Source of the DNA: an uncultured Holophagaceae bacterium | Lineage (GTDB): Bacteria > Acidobacteriota > Holophagae > Holophagales > Holophagaceae | Direction: 5' to 3' | Length of the DNA: 64,000 nt | NCBI GenBank assembly: GCA_903937385.1 | Contig: CAIZZF010000004.1 | Span: 62,001 to 126,000, forward strand | Shown: positions 33,262-40,875 of the stretch, piece after piece | How positions within the stretch are numbered: position 1 is the first letter of the stretch | Layout of the letters: each line of letters begins with the position of its first letter | Notes under the pieces: model-generated | Seen by the model: only the letters and a program-made list of their open reading frames with translations | What the model was told of the DNA's origin: nothing | Databases searched by the model: none | Translations under genes and position numbers: made by a program

Positions 33262-36200
33262 ATGGGCCTCACAACTTCCCGAATCCTGGCTGTCCTGGCG
33301 CTCCTGGCGACCCTGCCCCTGGGCGCCCAGGACGATGCCTACAAGGCTCAGTACCAGGTCAACTACAAGCGCTTCACCCGCGGTGACGATCTCAAGATCC
33401 AGGATGAGGCCTGGGGCAGGCTGGAGTGGTTCCGGGAGCGCATGGGCGGCGACCTGGGTCCCGAATTCTCGCGCCATCTGCTCGCTGAGGCTGAGAAGGA
33501 GCGGACCAAGTATCCGGAGCTCTTTAAGTCCGCCTTTGGTCCCGAGCTCCCGGCGGCCATCCCCTCCGCGGCCTGGACCAGCCTCGGTCCCACCACCGCC
33601 GCCTTCACCCAGAACGGCTCCACCCTCTTCAAGGTGGACAGCGGCCGCCTGCGCAACATCCTGGTGGACACCGCCGATAGCACGGGCAACACCGTCTATG
33701 TCCTAGCCAGCGGTGGGGGCCTCTGGAAGACCACCAACTTCCTGAGCGCGCTCCCCGCCTGGACCGCCCTCACGGACTTCATTGGCAGCAACATGTCCGG
33801 GGCCGCCACCTTCGGCCGGGTGACCAGCACCCTCTATGTGGGAGCAGGAGATCCCTTCGACCTGGGGGTGGGCGGCTTCGTCGTCAAGTCCTCCAACGGC
33901 GGCACCACCTGGACTGCGGGGGTCCATCTGGGCGCCGCCGCCAAGATCTATGACCTCAAGGTGGATACCAGCCAGAGCAACGACATCGTCCTGGTGGGCA
34001 CGGATGTGGGCCTGTACCGCTCCACCGATGGCGGCACGACCTACAGTGCCGTCGCCGGCATCCCGGCCACCTCCAAGGCCTGGAGCCTGGTCAGGTCCAA
34101 TGCCGGCTGGCTGGTCGCCACCCAGACCACCGCCACCAGCAAGGCGGGCTTCGTCTTCCTCAGCACCGACCAGGGCGCCACCTGGACGGCGGTGGGTGCC
34201 ACCCCCTTTGCCCCCGCCGGCCGCATCACCCTGGCGGTGGGCCAGCCCGGGGACAGCGTGGTCTATGGCTATGCCGCCACGCCCGATGGCTCCGCCCAGA
34301 TGGACCTCCTCCGCTCTCTCGACGGGGGCACTACCTGGACCCCCCTGAACATCACCGCCAAGCTGCCCACCAACGCCAATACCGACAACCCCAACATGGA
34401 CCTGATGCACAGCCAGGCATGGTACAACCACATGATCCTGGTGGATCCCACCGATGCGGCCCGCAACACCGTCTACCTGGGTGGCAACCTGTCCTCTGCC
34501 AAGACCGTGAACGGGGGCAGCACCTGGACCCTCATCTCGAACTGGATGGCCCAGTTCAACCTGCCCTACGTTCATGCGGATCTCCACTGCGCCGCCTTCT
34601 CCACCTTTGGCGGCACCTCGCGGCTCTACTTCGGCACCGACGGCGGGATCTCCACCAGCACCGACGGCGGCACCACCTGGGACGACACCAAGAACAAGGG
34701 CCTGGTGAACCACCTCGTCTACGCCCTGGCGGCCAACCCCGGGGTGGCCGGCAGCGCCCTGGTGGGCCTGCAGGACAACGGCACCCGCATCCGCGTGGGC
34801 ACCACCGGCACCTTCAATGCGGTCCGGGGCGGTGACGGCTTCGGCGTGGCCTGGGCCCAGGCTGTGAACACGACCTCAGCGGCCTCCCTGTCCTCCTACG
34901 TCTACAACGCCATCCGGCGGGCCACCACCAGCCCTGTCACAGACCAGAGCCAGTGGAGCAGCTTCACTTCAGGCTTGGGTTCCACGTCCTCCACCGACAA
35001 CGGCGCCAGCTACTACTTCGTCACGCCGCTGGTCGCGCCACCCGCCGGGGCAGACCCCTCGGGCCAGGTGTTCTTCACCTACGGCAACGGCCTCACCGGC
35101 ACCAACAGCAAGAAGATCTTCCAGAGCACCTCCTCAGGCTGGAGCAGCATCTACACGGCCCCCCTCGTGGGCGCCACAGCTGGCATCTACGTTCGGGCGG
35201 TCAGCCACGGCATCGGCGTGAGCCCTGCCAGCCTCCAGACCATCGCCGCAGCGGGCAACGGAGGCTATGTCCTGCTCACCAGCAATGGGGGCAGCACCTG
35301 GACGCCCGTGTTCCTAGGGGCCCTCAACACAGACGGAACGCAGGCTGCGAACAGCCTGGTCACGGGCTGGCAGGGCTACAACGCCAACATTGCCTGGGCG
35401 AACAACAGCCTGCTCTATGTCTGCTCCGAGTCCCCGTTCGCCGGCTCCGTTCGGGTGGCCAAGTCCGCCAACGGAGGCAGCTCCTGGGCCGCCGCGGGAA
35501 CCGGGCTTCCCGACGTTCCCGTCACCAAGCTGGCGGTGGATCCGGGGGACACCAGCGGCAACACCGTCTATGCTGCCACCTGGCTGGGCGTCTACCGCAC
35601 CACCAACGGCGGCAGCTCATGGGCTGTGTTCGGCACGGGCCTCCCCCAGGGCCGCGCCACGGATATCTGGGTCGCCCCGGACGGCAGCAGCATCCGCGTG
35701 GCCACCTGGGGCCGGGGGGTGTGGGAGATCGCCGTCCCCGTGGCACCCAGCATCCTGACCGCGCCCGCCAACGTGACTGCGATCGAGGGCCACCGCGCCA
35801 CCTTCACGGTTCGGGCTCTCGGCAGCGGCACCCTCAACTACCAGTGGAAGAAGAACGGCAGCGCCATTTCCGGCGCCACGGACAGCACCTACATCACCCC
35901 TACCCTGGCCCTGGCCGATAACAGCGCCACCTTCAGCTGCGATGTGACCAACAGCGTGAGCTCGGTCTCCTCCACGTCCGCCACCCTCACGATCCTGGCC
36001 CTGGGCACCGGCACCACCGTCTCCAGCAGCACAGCGACGTTCGTCCCCGATGCGACCACCTCTGGGACTGGAACTGTCGTGGCAGGAGCCGCCGTCGAGG
36101 TTCCGTTCACGGTTTCAGGTATCGCAGGCACCATCGGGGAAGTGACGGTGTCCCTGTATCTCACGCACACCTACGTGGGGGACCTGATCATCACCCTCGT

Positions 36201-36660
36201 GGCTCCGGACAACAGCACCGTCGTCATCAGCAATAACGCTGGCGGGGGCTCCGGCGCCACCAACACGGCCGCCCTGGGAACCGCCTGCGGCACCTATGCG
36301 GTCTTCTCGGACACCGGGACGACCTCCATCGACACGCAGGTAACTCCCCCGGCCATCGTCGGGACCTTCCGCCCCTCCTTCCCCCTTGATGCCTTCACTG
36401 GGAAGTCCCCCAACGGCACCTGGAAGCTCCGGTTCCAGGACGTCGGCCCCGGGGACACCGGCACCTTCCAGTGCGGCGTCCTCTCCATCAAGCCCCTGGC
36501 GGGCGGGGTCTCGCTCGACGTCAATGCCGACGGGATCATCGATCTTCGCGACCTGCTCTACCTCGCGAAGTACTACGGCACCACCAATGCCACCTGCGAC
36601 CTCAACAAGGACGGGACGGTAAACGACGCCGACCTCGCCCTGCTGCTCGCCGGACTGTGA
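33262..36660 (+). CDS. Secreted BNR-repeat / Ig-like / P-domain protein with C-terminal dockerin
   Basis: 1132 residues. Signal peptide (about 1-22, ending LPLGAQ). Residues about 70-825 form a beta-propeller-like region with at least nine Asp-box motifs of the S-x-DGG-x-TW type (STDGGTTWDD, SLDGGTTWTP, SANGGSSW and others), as in sialidase/VPS10-like folds. An Ig-like domain (about 829-915) and a proprotein-convertase P-like domain (about 923-1080) follow. The C-terminus (1086-1132) is a type I-like dockerin with two calcium loops, DVNADGIIDLRD and DLNKDGTVNDAD. No catalytic nucleophile is evident. ATG at 33262 with GGAG upstream. A possible cohesin-like lipoprotein gene follows 11 bases later. 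Confidence 0.88.
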   Translation: MGLTTSRILAVLALLATLPLGAQDDAYKAQYQVNYKRFTRGDDLKIQDEAWGRLEWFRERMGGDLGPEFSRHLLAEAEKERTKYPELFKSAFGPELPAAIPSAAWTSLGPTTAAFTQNGSTLFKVDSGRLRNILVDTADSTGNTVYVLASGGGLWKTTNFLSALPAWTALTDFIGSNMSGAATFGRVTSTLYVGAGDPFDLGVGGFVVKSSNGGTTWTAGVHLGAAAKIYDLKVDTSQSNDIVLVGTDVGLYRSTDGGTTYSAVAGIPATSKAWSLVRSNAGWLVATQTTATSKAGFVFLSTDQGATWTAVGATPFAPAGRITLAVGQPGDSVVYGYAATPDGSAQMDLLRSLDGGTTWTPLNITAKLPTNANTDNPNMDLMHSQAWYNHMILVDPTDAARNTVYLGGNLSSAKTVNGGSTWTLISNWMAQFNLPYVHADLHCAAFSTFGGTSRLYFGTDGGISTSTDGGTTWDDTKNKGLVNHLVYALAANPGVAGSALVGLQDNGTRIRVGTTGTFNAVRGGDGFGVAWAQAVNTTSAASLSSYVYNAIRRATTSPVTDQSQWSSFTSGLGSTSSTDNGASYYFVTPLVAPPAGADPSGQVFFTYGNGLTGTNSKKIFQSTSSGWSSIYTAPLVGATAGIYVRAVSHGIGVSPASLQTIAAAGNGGYVLLTSNGGSTWTPVFLGALNTDGTQAANSLVTGWQGYNANIAWANNSLLYVCSESPFAGSVRVAKSANGGSSWAAAGTGLPDVPVTKLAVDPGDTSGNTVYAATWLGVYRTTNGGSSWAVFGTGLPQGRATDIWVAPDGSSIRVATWGRGVWEIAVPVAPSILTAPANVTAIEGHRATFTVRALGSGTLNYQWKKNGSAISGATDSTYITPTLALADNSATFSCDVTNSVSSVSSTSATLTILALGTGTTVSSSTATFVPDATTSGTGTVVAGAAVEVPFTVSGIAGTIGEVTVSLYLTHTYVGDLIITLVAPDNSTVVISNNAGGGSGATNTAALGTACGTYAVFSDTGTTSIDTQVTPPAIVGTFRPSFPLDAFTGKSPNGTWKLRFQDVGPGDTGTFQCGVLSIKPLAGGVSLDVNADGIIDLRDLLYLAKYYGTTNATCDLNKDGTVNDADLALLLAGL

Positions 36661-36671
36661 GGGAGATGACC

Positions 36672-37484
36672 ATGTCCCCGATGAAGAAGATCCTCTCTGG
36701 CTGCTTTCTCCTGGCTTTGGCCGCTCTCACCGCCTGCGGCGGCGGGGGCGGTGGCAGCGCCCCTCCCCCCACACCGACCTATACCGTCACCTTCGTGGCC
36801 GGCACGGGAGGCACCCTGACCGGCACCGCCAGCCAGAGCGTCACCTCCGGCGGCAGCACCAGCGCCGTCACAGCGGTCCCCAACGCAGGCTATGCCTTCA
36901 CCAGCTGGACCGGCGCGGGCTTCACCACCAGCACCACCAATCCCCTGGTGGTCTCCAGCGTGGCCCAGACCCTGGCCATCACCGCGAACTTCAGCCTGGT
37001 CACCGCCACGGCCCTCGCCTACACGGATCCCACCACCGGCACCTACCTGCTGAAGAAGAATGCTGCCCTCTCCACGGCCACTCATCTGGTCCTGGAGCTG
37101 GTGGGTCCTGCGGCCACCGCGGGCTCGGGCGTCTCTGCCAGCTTCACCGCCGATACCACCAAGGTCACCTGGGCCAACGTCGCCAGCTCTGATGCGGCGG
37201 CCACCTACCTCCAGACCGGGGGGACCTTCAACCTGGGAACGGGCACGCCCATCCTCAAGGGCAAGGTCACCGGCGGCGTCCTCCAGGTGACGGCCGCCCA
37301 GAAGGGCACCGCCAGCCCCGTCTCCCTGAACGCGGCGCTGCTCCGGATCGCCCTGGACCTCAAGACTGGGCAGACTCCCGGGACCGTCACCCTGACGCCC
37401 GATGCCACCAAGTGCCAGGTCATCGACAGTGCCGGTGCCATCCAGACCATCATCGTGACGGCCGGCACCCTCACCGCGCAGTAA
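36672..37484 (+). CDS. Lipoprotein with InlB-like repeat and putative cohesin-like domain
   Basis: 270 residues. Lipoprotein signal with lipobox LTAC (Cys22), then six Gly. Residues about 34-105 resemble the InlB/Listeria-Bacteroides-type repeat (YTVTFVAGTGGTLTG, AGYAFTSWTG). Residues about 110-268 are an all-beta domain: THLVLELVGP, SASFTADTTKVTW, LLRIALDLKTGQTPGTVTL. This order of a long first strand, the T-x-KVTW turn and a closing LRIALDLK/TVTL pair is reminiscent of cohesins, although similarity is not strong enough to prove it. It follows the dockerin gene by 11 bases and would anchor that protein to the cell surface. GGGAG precedes the ATG at 36672. Confidence 0.7.
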   Translation: MSPMKKILSGCFLLALAALTACGGGGGGSAPPPTPTYTVTFVAGTGGTLTGTASQSVTSGGSTSAVTAVPNAGYAFTSWTGAGFTTSTTNPLVVSSVAQTLAITANFSLVTATALAYTDPTTGTYLLKKNAALSTATHLVLELVGPAATAGSGVSASFTADTTKVTWANVASSDAAATYLQTGGTFNLGTGTPILKGKVTGGVLQVTAAQKGTASPVSLNAALLRIALDLKTGQTPGTVTLTPDATKCQVIDSAGAIQTIIVTAGTLTAQ

Positions 37485-37530: not shown

Positions 37531-37614
37531 ACCTTTGTCGGAAACGTTTGACCAGGCTCAGGTTAGGGCGCGTGGGGAGATTTGCCTTGCGAGCCTTGTC
37601 ATAATGAATGCGTC

Positions 37615-40600
37615 ATGCGCTCCACCTGCCCCGTGGTTCCGATTGCGCTCGCCCTGCTGACCCTGCTGACCCTGCTGACCCTGGCGGCCTGTGGCGGAGG
37701 GGGCGGCGGGAGCGGCTCCACCCCTTCGCCCGGACCCACCCTCAGCGCGATCAGCCCCAACCATGGCCCGCCTGGCACCCGGGTGGCCCTCAGCGGGAGC
37801 GGCCTCGGGAACGTCACCGCCGTCGCCTTCAATGGCGCCAGCGCCTTCTCCTTCACTCTGGTGGGGAGCACCCAGATCGACGCGGTGGTCCCGGGCAACG
37901 CCACCACCGGCCCCGTTCAAGTCAGTGGCGCCACCGGAAGCGCAGTCTCGCCCACCTTCACGGTGGAGCCCTTCGTGGCCCCGACCCTCACCGGTTTTGC
38001 GCCCTCGAGCCTCTCGGCGGGCCGACTGACCACCCTGACAGGGACCCACCTTGTGGGCACAACCCAGGTGTTGTTCCACGATGCCAGCGCCACCAGCTTC
38101 ACCGTCCTCAGTGACACCCAGGTCCAGGCCGTGGCCCCCGCCGGGCTGACGGCTGGCACCATCTCTGTCACCACACCCGGTGGCACGGCCGTCAGTACCG
38201 ATGCCTACACGCTGGAAGCTGCCCTGGTCCAGGTGCTGATGAACTCCGACTTCGAGCAGGCCTCGCCCCTGATCTGGCAGGGAGACACCAGCATCATCCA
38301 GGACGCCCCGGGCTCGACTGATCCAGGCGTGGTCGCCCGCAGCGGCAGCCTGTTCGCGTGGCTGGGAGGCTACGGCTTCGCCGCCTCGGATCAGATCACC
38401 CAGGACTTCTACATCCCGGCCACGGCCCAGTCCGCCACCCTCACCTTCTACCTGAAAATCATCACCGCCGAGCCGACTACCGCCGCCACGGATACCCTCA
38501 CTGTCGCCGCCCTCGACACCACTGGCGCCAGCCTGGGCATCCTGCTCACCCGCTCCAACCTGAACGCCTCCGACTACACCGCCTGCACCGCCGACCTGCT
38601 CCCCTACAAGGGGCGGACGGTGCGCCTGTCCTTCAAGAGCCAAGAGGACGCCCAACGCGCCACCAGCTTCTTGCTCGATGATGTGGTGGCCAACCTCACC
38701 GTGCCTGCGGCCACGGACCTCAAGCCCCTGATCACCAGCTTCACGCCCACCTCAGGGCTGGCGGGCGAGACCAGCGTCCGGATCACCGGCGGAAATTTCT
38801 TTGGCCTGACCAGCGTAAGTGTCGGTGGCCTCGGCGCCAGCTACACCCTCACGGATGGGACCAGCCTCAGCGCCACGGTCCCGGGCAACGCCACCATCGG
38901 CAGCACCCCGATCAGCCTCACCAACCTCCAGGGCACAGGCCTCTCCACAGGCAGTTTTTCCGTGCTTTATGGAACGCCGACCGTCACCGGAGTGAACCCC
39001 ACCCAGGGCCCCGTGGGCACCCCCGTCGTCCTCACAGGCACCTACCTGGGCTACAGCAACACGACCCTCACCCTGAATGGCCTGGCCCTTACGCCCACCA
39101 GCAGGAGCGCCACCCAGATCACCTTCACGGTGCCCCCAGGTGCCACCAGCGGCAGCCTGGTTCTCACCTCGCCCGGCGGCACGGTGACCCGGACCTTTAC
39201 CGTCAACACAGCGACCTCCGCCCTGGACCTCCACATCGAGAAGGTGCAGTTCACCCAGAGCGTGCAGACCCTGGACAACGCGGTAGCCATCGTGGCGGGA
39301 AAGAAGGGCCTGGTCCGGGTCTTCGTCCTGGCCAACCAGGTGAATGCCGCCGCCCCCGCGGTCCGGATCACCCTGCTCAACAATGGCGCGGCCGTCGCAG
39401 GCTACCCGAAGACCGTGGCAGCCCCCGGCAGCGGCGTTCCCCTCAGCCTGGACCCATCCCTCGCCTCCAATAGCTGGAACCTGGCGGTTCCCGCCACGGA
39501 CCTCACCACGCCCCTGGGCACCGGCTATGGCCTCCTGGCGGAAGTGGACCCAGCCGGGGCCGTGGCCGAAGCTGACGAGACCAACAACTCGCTCGCCATC
39601 ACCCTGCGGGGCGCCGCAGTGCCGGCCTTCAAGACCACGATTTTCCCCGTGGTGCTGACCAGCGGCACCGGCGATGTCACCCCAGCCAACAAGGATGCCT
39701 GGGCGGCCCGGCTCGCCAAGATGTATCCATTGGCCAGCGTGGACGTGGCCGTCGGGGCCGCCTTCACGGGCTCGGTCTCCACCCTCAGCTCGGACGGCAC
39801 AGGCTGGAGCACGCTGCTGAGCGACCTTGCCACCAAGCACCAGGCCGACGGCGCCTCAGATCGCTACTACTTCGGGGCCCTGAGTGTGAGCTACGGCTCC
39901 GGGGTCGCCGGCCTCGGCTACGTCCCCTCCTCCCCGTCCACCGCCTTCTCGTCCCGAACCGCCCTCGGCTGGGACAAGACAGGCTTATCCGATGGAGGCA
40001 ACTTCCCCGAAGTCTTTGCCCATGAAACGGGCCACAACATGGGCTCCAGACATAGCCCCTGCCCGACCTCCGGCTCGAATGTCCCGTCCGGCATCGACCC
40101 GGCCTACCCCTACGCCGGGGGACTCATCGGCCAGTGGGGCTACGACACCGTCCTGGACCAGTGGAAGTCACCGCTGACCTTCAAGGACATCATGGCCTAC
40201 TGCAGCCCCGTCTGGATCAGTGACTACACCTACCAGAAGGTGTTCGACTTCCGGGGCGGCACCGGCGGCTTCCTCGCGGGTGGCACCGAGGACACACCCC
40301 TGGCGGCGCCTCTGGCCACCCTCAGGGAGTGCCTGCTGGTCCGCGGCCTCGTCCACGAGGATGGCCAGGTGGAGCTGCTCCCCGCCTTCCGAACCCGAGC
40401 CCTGCCCACCGCGGCACCAACCGCAGGGGACTACACCCTCACCGGCCTTGACGCGCAGGGCGCAGTCCTCTTCACGGCACCGCTCACCCTGACGGAGGTG
40501 GGCTGCTCACCCAAGGGGCACGAGCGCCACTTCGTGGTGGCCCTGCCGCTGGAGGCGCCGCTGCTAGAGGCCGTCACGGGCCTGAGCGTGCTGCAGGCCG

Positions 40601-40875
40601 GCCAGGTCCTGACTGGCCGCCGTGGTCTCCCGAAAACCCTGCAGGGAAGCGCGGCGCCACCGGAGGCACGGCGCCTCGCCCCGGACCGGATCCAGGTCAG
40701 GTGGGACGCGACCCTGCACCCGGCCGCCCTGGTCCGGGACGCGGATACGGGAGAAGTGATCGCCATTCTGGGGGGCGGCAGCCAGACGCTCCTCACGTCG
40801 GCGAAGCGTGTCGAGGTGGTGCTGAGCGATGGCGTGAGCGGGCCGACCCACCGCCTGGAAACCCCCGCCGAGTAG
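37615..40875 (+). CDS. TIG-repeat lipoprotein with metzincin-type zinc protease domain
   Basis: 1086 residues. A lipoprotein signal ends at Cys26 (LAAC), followed by Gly/Ser linker. Two IPT/TIG-like domains (about 40-205), a jelly-roll-like segment (about 207-370), two more TIG-like domains (372-535), a CARDB-like domain (about 540-665, ending AEADETNNSLAIT), then a zinc-protease domain. HETGHNMGSRH at 803-813 is a metzincin HExxHxxGxxH motif, and DIMAYCSP about 55 residues later is a plausible Met-turn. A C-terminal beta-rich region (about 880-1086) closes the protein. Surface-anchored protease, substrate unknown. ATG at 37615. Third gene of the exported-protein island. Confidence 0.85.
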   Translation: MRSTCPVVPIALALLTLLTLLTLAACGGGGGGSGSTPSPGPTLSAISPNHGPPGTRVALSGSGLGNVTAVAFNGASAFSFTLVGSTQIDAVVPGNATTGPVQVSGATGSAVSPTFTVEPFVAPTLTGFAPSSLSAGRLTTLTGTHLVGTTQVLFHDASATSFTVLSDTQVQAVAPAGLTAGTISVTTPGGTAVSTDAYTLEAALVQVLMNSDFEQASPLIWQGDTSIIQDAPGSTDPGVVARSGSLFAWLGGYGFAASDQITQDFYIPATAQSATLTFYLKIITAEPTTAATDTLTVAALDTTGASLGILLTRSNLNASDYTACTADLLPYKGRTVRLSFKSQEDAQRATSFLLDDVVANLTVPAATDLKPLITSFTPTSGLAGETSVRITGGNFFGLTSVSVGGLGASYTLTDGTSLSATVPGNATIGSTPISLTNLQGTGLSTGSFSVLYGTPTVTGVNPTQGPVGTPVVLTGTYLGYSNTTLTLNGLALTPTSRSATQITFTVPPGATSGSLVLTSPGGTVTRTFTVNTATSALDLHIEKVQFTQSVQTLDNAVAIVAGKKGLVRVFVLANQVNAAAPAVRITLLNNGAAVAGYPKTVAAPGSGVPLSLDPSLASNSWNLAVPATDLTTPLGTGYGLLAEVDPAGAVAEADETNNSLAITLRGAAVPAFKTTIFPVVLTSGTGDVTPANKDAWAARLAKMYPLASVDVAVGAAFTGSVSTLSSDGTGWSTLLSDLATKHQADGASDRYYFGALSVSYGSGVAGLGYVPSSPSTAFSSRTALGWDKTGLSDGGNFPEVFAHETGHNMGSRHSPCPTSGSNVPSGIDPAYPYAGGLIGQWGYDTVLDQWKSPLTFKDIMAYCSPVWISDYTYQKVFDFRGGTGGFLAGGTEDTPLAAPLATLRECLLVRGLVHEDGQVELLPAFRTRALPTAAPTAGDYTLTGLDAQGAVLFTAPLTLTEVGCSPKGHERHFVVALPLEAPLLEAVTGLSVLQAGQVLTGRRGLPKTLQGSAAPPEARRLAPDRIQVRWDATLHPAALVRDADTGEVIAILGGGSQTLLTSAKRVEVVLSDGVSGPTHRLETPAE
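37654..37680 (+). repeat. Three perfect 9-base tandem repeats in signal peptide
   Basis: CTGCTGACC occurs three times in tandem within codons 14-22 of the zinc-protease gene, encoding Leu-Leu-Thr repeats in the hydrophobic core of the lipoprotein signal. Copy-number change by slippage would keep the frame and only alter the length of the hydrophobic segment. Confidence 0.8.

Follow-up and report, generated by a model that had tools for sequence, protein, structure and literature searches.

The window considered here, a 64,000-nucleotide stretch of contig CAIZZF010000004.1 from an uncultured Holophagaceae bacterium (assembly GCA_903937385.1), encodes a large exported protein that ends in a dockerin and, immediately downstream, a small lipoprotein. 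Does the lipoprotein provide the cohesin for this dockerin, and what would such a pair do for the cell? An original prediction, made from the sequence alone, had proposed a two-gene display system in a probably acidobacterial host, and the nearest named relatives are indeed members of Holophagaceae and Geothrix. As detailed below, it is highly probable that the two genes encode a cognate plug-and-socket pair pinning an exported cargo protein, and that this pair belongs to a set of private dockerin–cohesin latches which extends across the family.

A dockerin protein and its lipoprotein neighbour

The first gene of the pair has the following features (window coordinates, strand, description, evidence):

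33262..36660, +, exported dockerin-ended protein, 1132 aa (ORF list and Pfam)
36136..36471, +, P_proprotein (proprotein convertase P-domain), residues 959-1070 (Pfam, 48.6 bits)
36517..36645, +, type I dockerin, residues 1086-1128 (Pfam Dockerin_1, PF00404)
36517..36552, +, calcium loop 1 of the dockerin, DVNADGIIDLRD (sequence)
36598..36633, +, calcium loop 2 of the dockerin, DLNKDGTVNDAD (sequence)

The product begins with a Sec-type signal peptide, MGLTTSRILAVLALLATLPLGAQ, and its domain make-up (Pfam) continues with Sortilin/BNR-like propeller repeats, an Ig/I-set domain, the P-domain and the dockerin. The type I dockerin first read from the letters was borne out by Dockerin_1, at 30.4 bits against a gathering cut-off of 22.9 (E 4.6e-7), and its two EF-hand-like, 12-residue calcium loops are both intact and correctly placed. 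A profile built on Holophagaceae dockerins (A5) matches solved dockerins as well. Symmetric cellulosomal dockerins have a dual binding mode; in the window dockerin, loop positions 10-11 read LR in one half and DA in the other, a difference which, by what is established for dockerins, speaks for one binding mode only.

The lipoprotein gene starts at 36672, 11 bases past the TGA of the dockerin gene, with an alternative in-frame ATG at 36666. Its features are:

36660..36665, +, putative ribosome-binding site AGGGAG, overlapping the stop codon of the dockerin gene (sequence; inference)
36672..37484, +, predicted cohesin lipoprotein, 270 aa (sequence, Pfam, AlphaFold2, Foldseek, VIA-align)
36735..36737, +, lipobox cysteine (Cys22), LTAC followed by six G (sequence)
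36780..36998, +, Flg_new_2 (InlB B-repeat-like) spacer domain separating the lipid anchor from the cohesin, residues 37-109 (Pfam, 42.6 bits)
36999..37481, +, predicted cohesin-fold domain, C-terminal about 160 residues (AlphaFold2, Foldseek, VIA-align; no Pfam or NCBIfam match)

The position of the Shine-Dalgarno sequence over the stop codon suggests translational coupling of the two genes. With its signal peptide and lipobox cysteine, the 270-aa product reads as a bacterial lipoprotein. A lipobox is likewise present in about 76 of the 77 partner proteins of the family set (67 found by script, about 9 by eye), usually with a run of glycines after it, and each of these lipoproteins has one cohesin only. 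The distance from the cysteine to the cohesin in relatives is mostly 8-24 residues, extending to about 90-100 where one spacer domain is present and to 242-311 in two cases.

The identity of the C-terminal domain rests on its predicted fold. An AlphaFold2 model of the last 163 residues, computed from a 12-row alignment (mean pLDDT 91.3, pTM 0.88), adopts a jelly-roll beta-sandwich of cohesin type. The best-ranked PDB entries found with Foldseek were all cohesins (E 3e-5), many of them solved together with dockerins, and the matches include Clostridium acetobutylicum CohA2, an Acetivibrio scaffoldin, and C. perfringens and Archaeoglobus modules. VIA-align gave cohesins at Z 10-13, with the type II cohesin 4u3s at the top (Z 13.2 over 141 residues); the ranking consists of cohesins only down to Z 8.7, the first unrelated chain following at Z 8.6. 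A 37%-identical paralogue from another clade, folded in another context, also matches cohesins. The cohesin-like nature originally suggested for this domain was thus upheld by structure comparison, and we regard the domain as a cohesin by predicted fold.

By sequence, the same domain goes unrecognised. Its identity to solved cohesins is about 7-18%, and the cohesin family model PF00963 matched neither the lipoprotein domains of the own genome, even at E 10, nor any of 45 diverse members of the domain, nor the lipoprotein domains in a family-wide scan. Pfam and NCBIfam scans left the domain without any family match, and searches of PDB sequences (phmmer with the domain, hmmsearch with 3-row and 45-row profiles) did not recognise a cohesin. 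The cohesin family found here is therefore one that current sequence models (Pfam, NCBIfam) miss.

Linkage of the two genes across Holophagaceae

The own genome contains three Pfam-level dockerin genes, and a lipoprotein ending in the cohesin-fold domain comes after each of them (3/3). To place this in a wider frame, 77 Holophagaceae genomes were searched for the domain and for Pfam-level dockerins, which yielded 123 domain matches in 66 genomes and 79 dockerins in 54; no dockerin-bearing genome lacked the domain. For 66 of the 79 dockerins the domain is encoded on the same strand and downstream, and the gap after the dockerin match mostly measures 100-150 bases. As the expectation estimated from genome size and copy number is about 2e-4 per dockerin, chance is ruled out as the cause of this recurrence.

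The neighbourhoods of the other 57 domain matches were then read, except for four which lie at contig ends or whose surroundings were not read, so that 119 matches are assessable in all. Forty of the 57 are preceded by a large gene with a dockerin-like C-terminal tail below the Pfam threshold, these tails being assigned by eye from the loop pattern. In three (L127, L128 and L130) the order is swapped, with the cohesin before the dockerin gene, and six open a triplet of cohesin lipoprotein, M4 peptidase with a one-loop dockerin, and second cohesin lipoprotein (L083, L085-L088 and L096). The domain thus adjoins a dockerin gene in 115 of 119 assessable cases (106 after a dockerin-ended gene, 3 before, 6 opening a triplet), and it is this linkage across the family that supports the proposed pairing of the two window proteins.

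Of the 396 genomes sampled in the phylum, just two drafts outside Holophagaceae contain the domain, with a dockerin gene adjoining in both. These single pairs (L123 in G177 and L124 in G312) are in draft genomes of other acidobacterial families and could reflect transfer or assembly contamination. Among the dockerin loci inspected in other acidobacterial families, none had a lipoprotein neighbour of this kind, and the pairing looks specific to Holophagaceae plus these two outlying genomes.

Two further observations concern individual loci. A gene beside two of the reversed-order pairs (L127, 2793-4187; L128, 135-1517) has, as judged by eye, a SPASM-like cysteine pattern at its C-terminus and perhaps encodes a radical SAM maturase. 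Two genomes of the genus encode a different long protein, in which ordinary PF00963 cohesins occur together with a dockerin-like stretch (L103, G042:C243; L104, G046:C403), apparently a second, standard cohesin system.

Matching subtypes and the case for private pairs

In a maximum-likelihood tree of 77 cohesins, 15 sequences form a clade of their own with branch support 100/100. The partners of this clade have a dockerin in which loop 1 is intact and loop 2 is without its first calcium ligands; the one-loop and two-loop classes were taken from tree clade and alignment, a split of dockerins by regular expression having mislabelled several rows. The cargo of the clade was an M4 peptidase in all five proteins scanned with Pfam. 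M4 peptidases with two-loop dockerins also exist (L049, L071), and their cohesins belong to the other clade, so that cohesin type tracks dockerin type, not cargo.

Several points weigh against the notion of private binding pairs. Linkage and matching subtypes can be explained by co-inheritance, and since neighbouring genes are inherited together, both support contact between the two proteins without proving it. Four of the 119 assessable cohesins have no neighbouring dockerin, and conversely three loci of one genus (L099-L101) have a dockerin gene without an adjoining cohesin: the lipoprotein gene is absent there and the dockerin gene directly adjoins the WYL-domain gene, which in the window comes two genes later, so that the dockerin would need a cohesin encoded elsewhere. 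Predicted docking carries too little weight to count on either side. L045 and L046 each have the dockerin gene and the lipoprotein gene in one frame with only a TAG between them, and read-through would give a single chain with both modules. The L045 fusion, folded in AlphaFold2 with the TAG as Gly and with a hydrophobic signal peptide between the modules that may disturb the result, reached pLDDT 81.3 and pTM 0.64, with the interface error not reported; the rough estimate for an unplaced dockerin is about 0.58-0.60.

Some of these points would fit a jelly-roll domain that is cohesin-like in shape but has a different binding partner, be it a glycan or some other protein, the genes being adjacent for other reasons. 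The low identity to solved cohesins is in keeping with this, the weak docking value leaves room for it, and cohesins are known to resemble some carbohydrate-binding modules. Given that the leading matches of the fold search are all cohesins, and that the domain is tied to dockerin genes at nearly every assessable locus, we consider such another ligand very improbable.

A less remote alternative concerns specificity. The cohesins and dockerins of one cell might be interchangeable, with the gene pairs merely balancing amounts, as would be compatible with the likeness of many two-loop dockerins, with the cohesins that have no dockerin neighbour, and with the fact that genomes containing dockerin genes without a cohesin neighbour still carry cohesins elsewhere. 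Under free exchange, however, there would be no need for pairs to stay together at nearly all loci, nor for subtypes to match within them, and an interchangeable set appears rather unlikely to us. The favoured reading remains that of cognate pairs, in which each lipoprotein would bind the dockerin encoded next to it.

If so, the large protein would be exported and its C-terminal dockerin would fold on calcium, while the small protein would be lipidated at Cys22 and present the one cohesin at its C-terminus on a short stalk. The lipid-anchored cohesin would then capture the dockerin of the protein from the same operon, and the propeller/Ig/P-domain protein would thereby be held on the outer membrane, probably on its outer face. 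Holophagaceae would reuse this latch for both propeller proteins and secreted peptidases, each cargo having a lipoprotein of its own.

The side of the membrane is where a different role could be envisaged: instead of anchoring the large protein at the surface, the lipoprotein might bind its dockerin in the periplasm and serve it as a chaperone or export pilot. A periplasmic orientation is common among lipoproteins, both proteins have Sec-type signals, the genome encodes two secretins, and the surface location is one that we infer. The cargo, however, is of extracellular kinds (M4, C10 and S53 peptidases; propellers with Ig/PKD arrays) and stalk length varies widely, which makes a periplasmic pilot improbable compared with an anchor at the cell surface.

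The proteins carried by this predicted latch are diverse. Those dockerin-bearing proteins of the family that were scanned are BNR/sortilin-like propellers with Ig, TIG, PKD or P-domains, and M4, C10 and S53 peptidases. The original reading of one unusual pair with BNR/P-domain cargo is refined by this, as the window pair is one of a family-wide set with several cargo types. The window locus lies between an XPB-like helicase gene and a WYL-domain gene, and at the same locus in the relative L039 the flanking genes are 97-98% identical, the cohesin 74% and the cargo only 32%. At a conserved site, the cargo thus either evolves rapidly or is exchanged. Following the lipoprotein gene in the window is a gene at 37582-40875 (+) for another lipoprotein, in which four TIG domains are combined with a zinc peptidase domain that is reprolysin-like (M12-type), HETGHNMGSRHS; five relatives (L038-L042) have a counterpart in the corresponding position, and L036, L037 and L043 do not.

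A broader proposal is that each cell has several mutually orthogonal latches, built from an unrecognised cohesin family and including a one-loop dockerin type, in a cassette exchangeable between proteases and adhesin-like propellers. We see the chances of this as about even.

Relation to known cohesin–dockerin systems

Noncellulosomal cohesin–dockerin pairs are already known. Strong and specific binding is reported for one such pair, ORF2375/ORF2376 of Archaeoglobus fulgidus, in PMC9705933, citing Voronov-Goldman 2011. The likeness to the window pair lies in dockerin and cohesin proteins whose ORF numbers are consecutive and whose host has no cellulosome, and the Archaeoglobus cohesin structure 2xdh is among the fold matches of the window domain (VIA-align Z 10.2). 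That pair is archaeal, whereas here the cohesin is on a lipoprotein, and many private pairs with protease and propeller cargo would extend across a bacterial family. Noncellulosomal cohesin and dockerin proteins, surface-related and with some adjacent cohesin/dockerin domains, have also been described in ANME archaea (PMC9012536) and in syntrophic sulfate reducers (PMC10553843). Those were found with standard domain models and include multi-cohesin scaffoldins in ANME, unlike the present cohesins, which escape the models, are single and are predicted to be lipid-anchored. The cohesin modules of Clostridium perfringens (2jh2, 2vo8, 2w1n), again noncellulosomal and again fold matches of the window domain, are on secreted glycoside hydrolases, whereas here one partner is a dedicated lipoprotein anchor.

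The closest functional parallel within cellulosomes is with cell-surface anchoring scaffoldins such as SdbA and OlpA, in which a cohesin on a surface anchor receives a dockerin protein. The system described here is not a cellulosome: each lipoprotein has one cohesin and each cargo gene one anchor, no PF00963 scaffoldin was found in the own genome, and the cargo scanned consists of propellers and peptidases, with no plant-polysaccharide cargo seen. It is rather, by gene linkage, a noncellulosomal pair encoded together. It differs from the pairs known before in its unrecognised cohesin family, in a dedicated lipoprotein with a single cohesin, in a near-strict pairing throughout the bacterial family, in a cargo of proteases and propellers, and in having a one-loop type of dockerin. 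In the literature covered, to which the 2009 survey of noncellulosomal modules (PMC3035643) does not belong, no link was found between dockerins of Geothrix or Acidobacteria and a cohesin lipoprotein.

The existence of a cohesin family overlooked by current models means that unrecognised partners may also be encoded beside other orphan dockerins. The set would, moreover, supply protein display and assembly with numerous natural cohesin–dockerin pairs, possibly orthogonal ones, of two-membrane bacterial origin. Geothrix and its relatives are known for extracellular electron transfer. If the pairing proposed here is true, it would explain how these bacteria keep large exported proteins on the cell.

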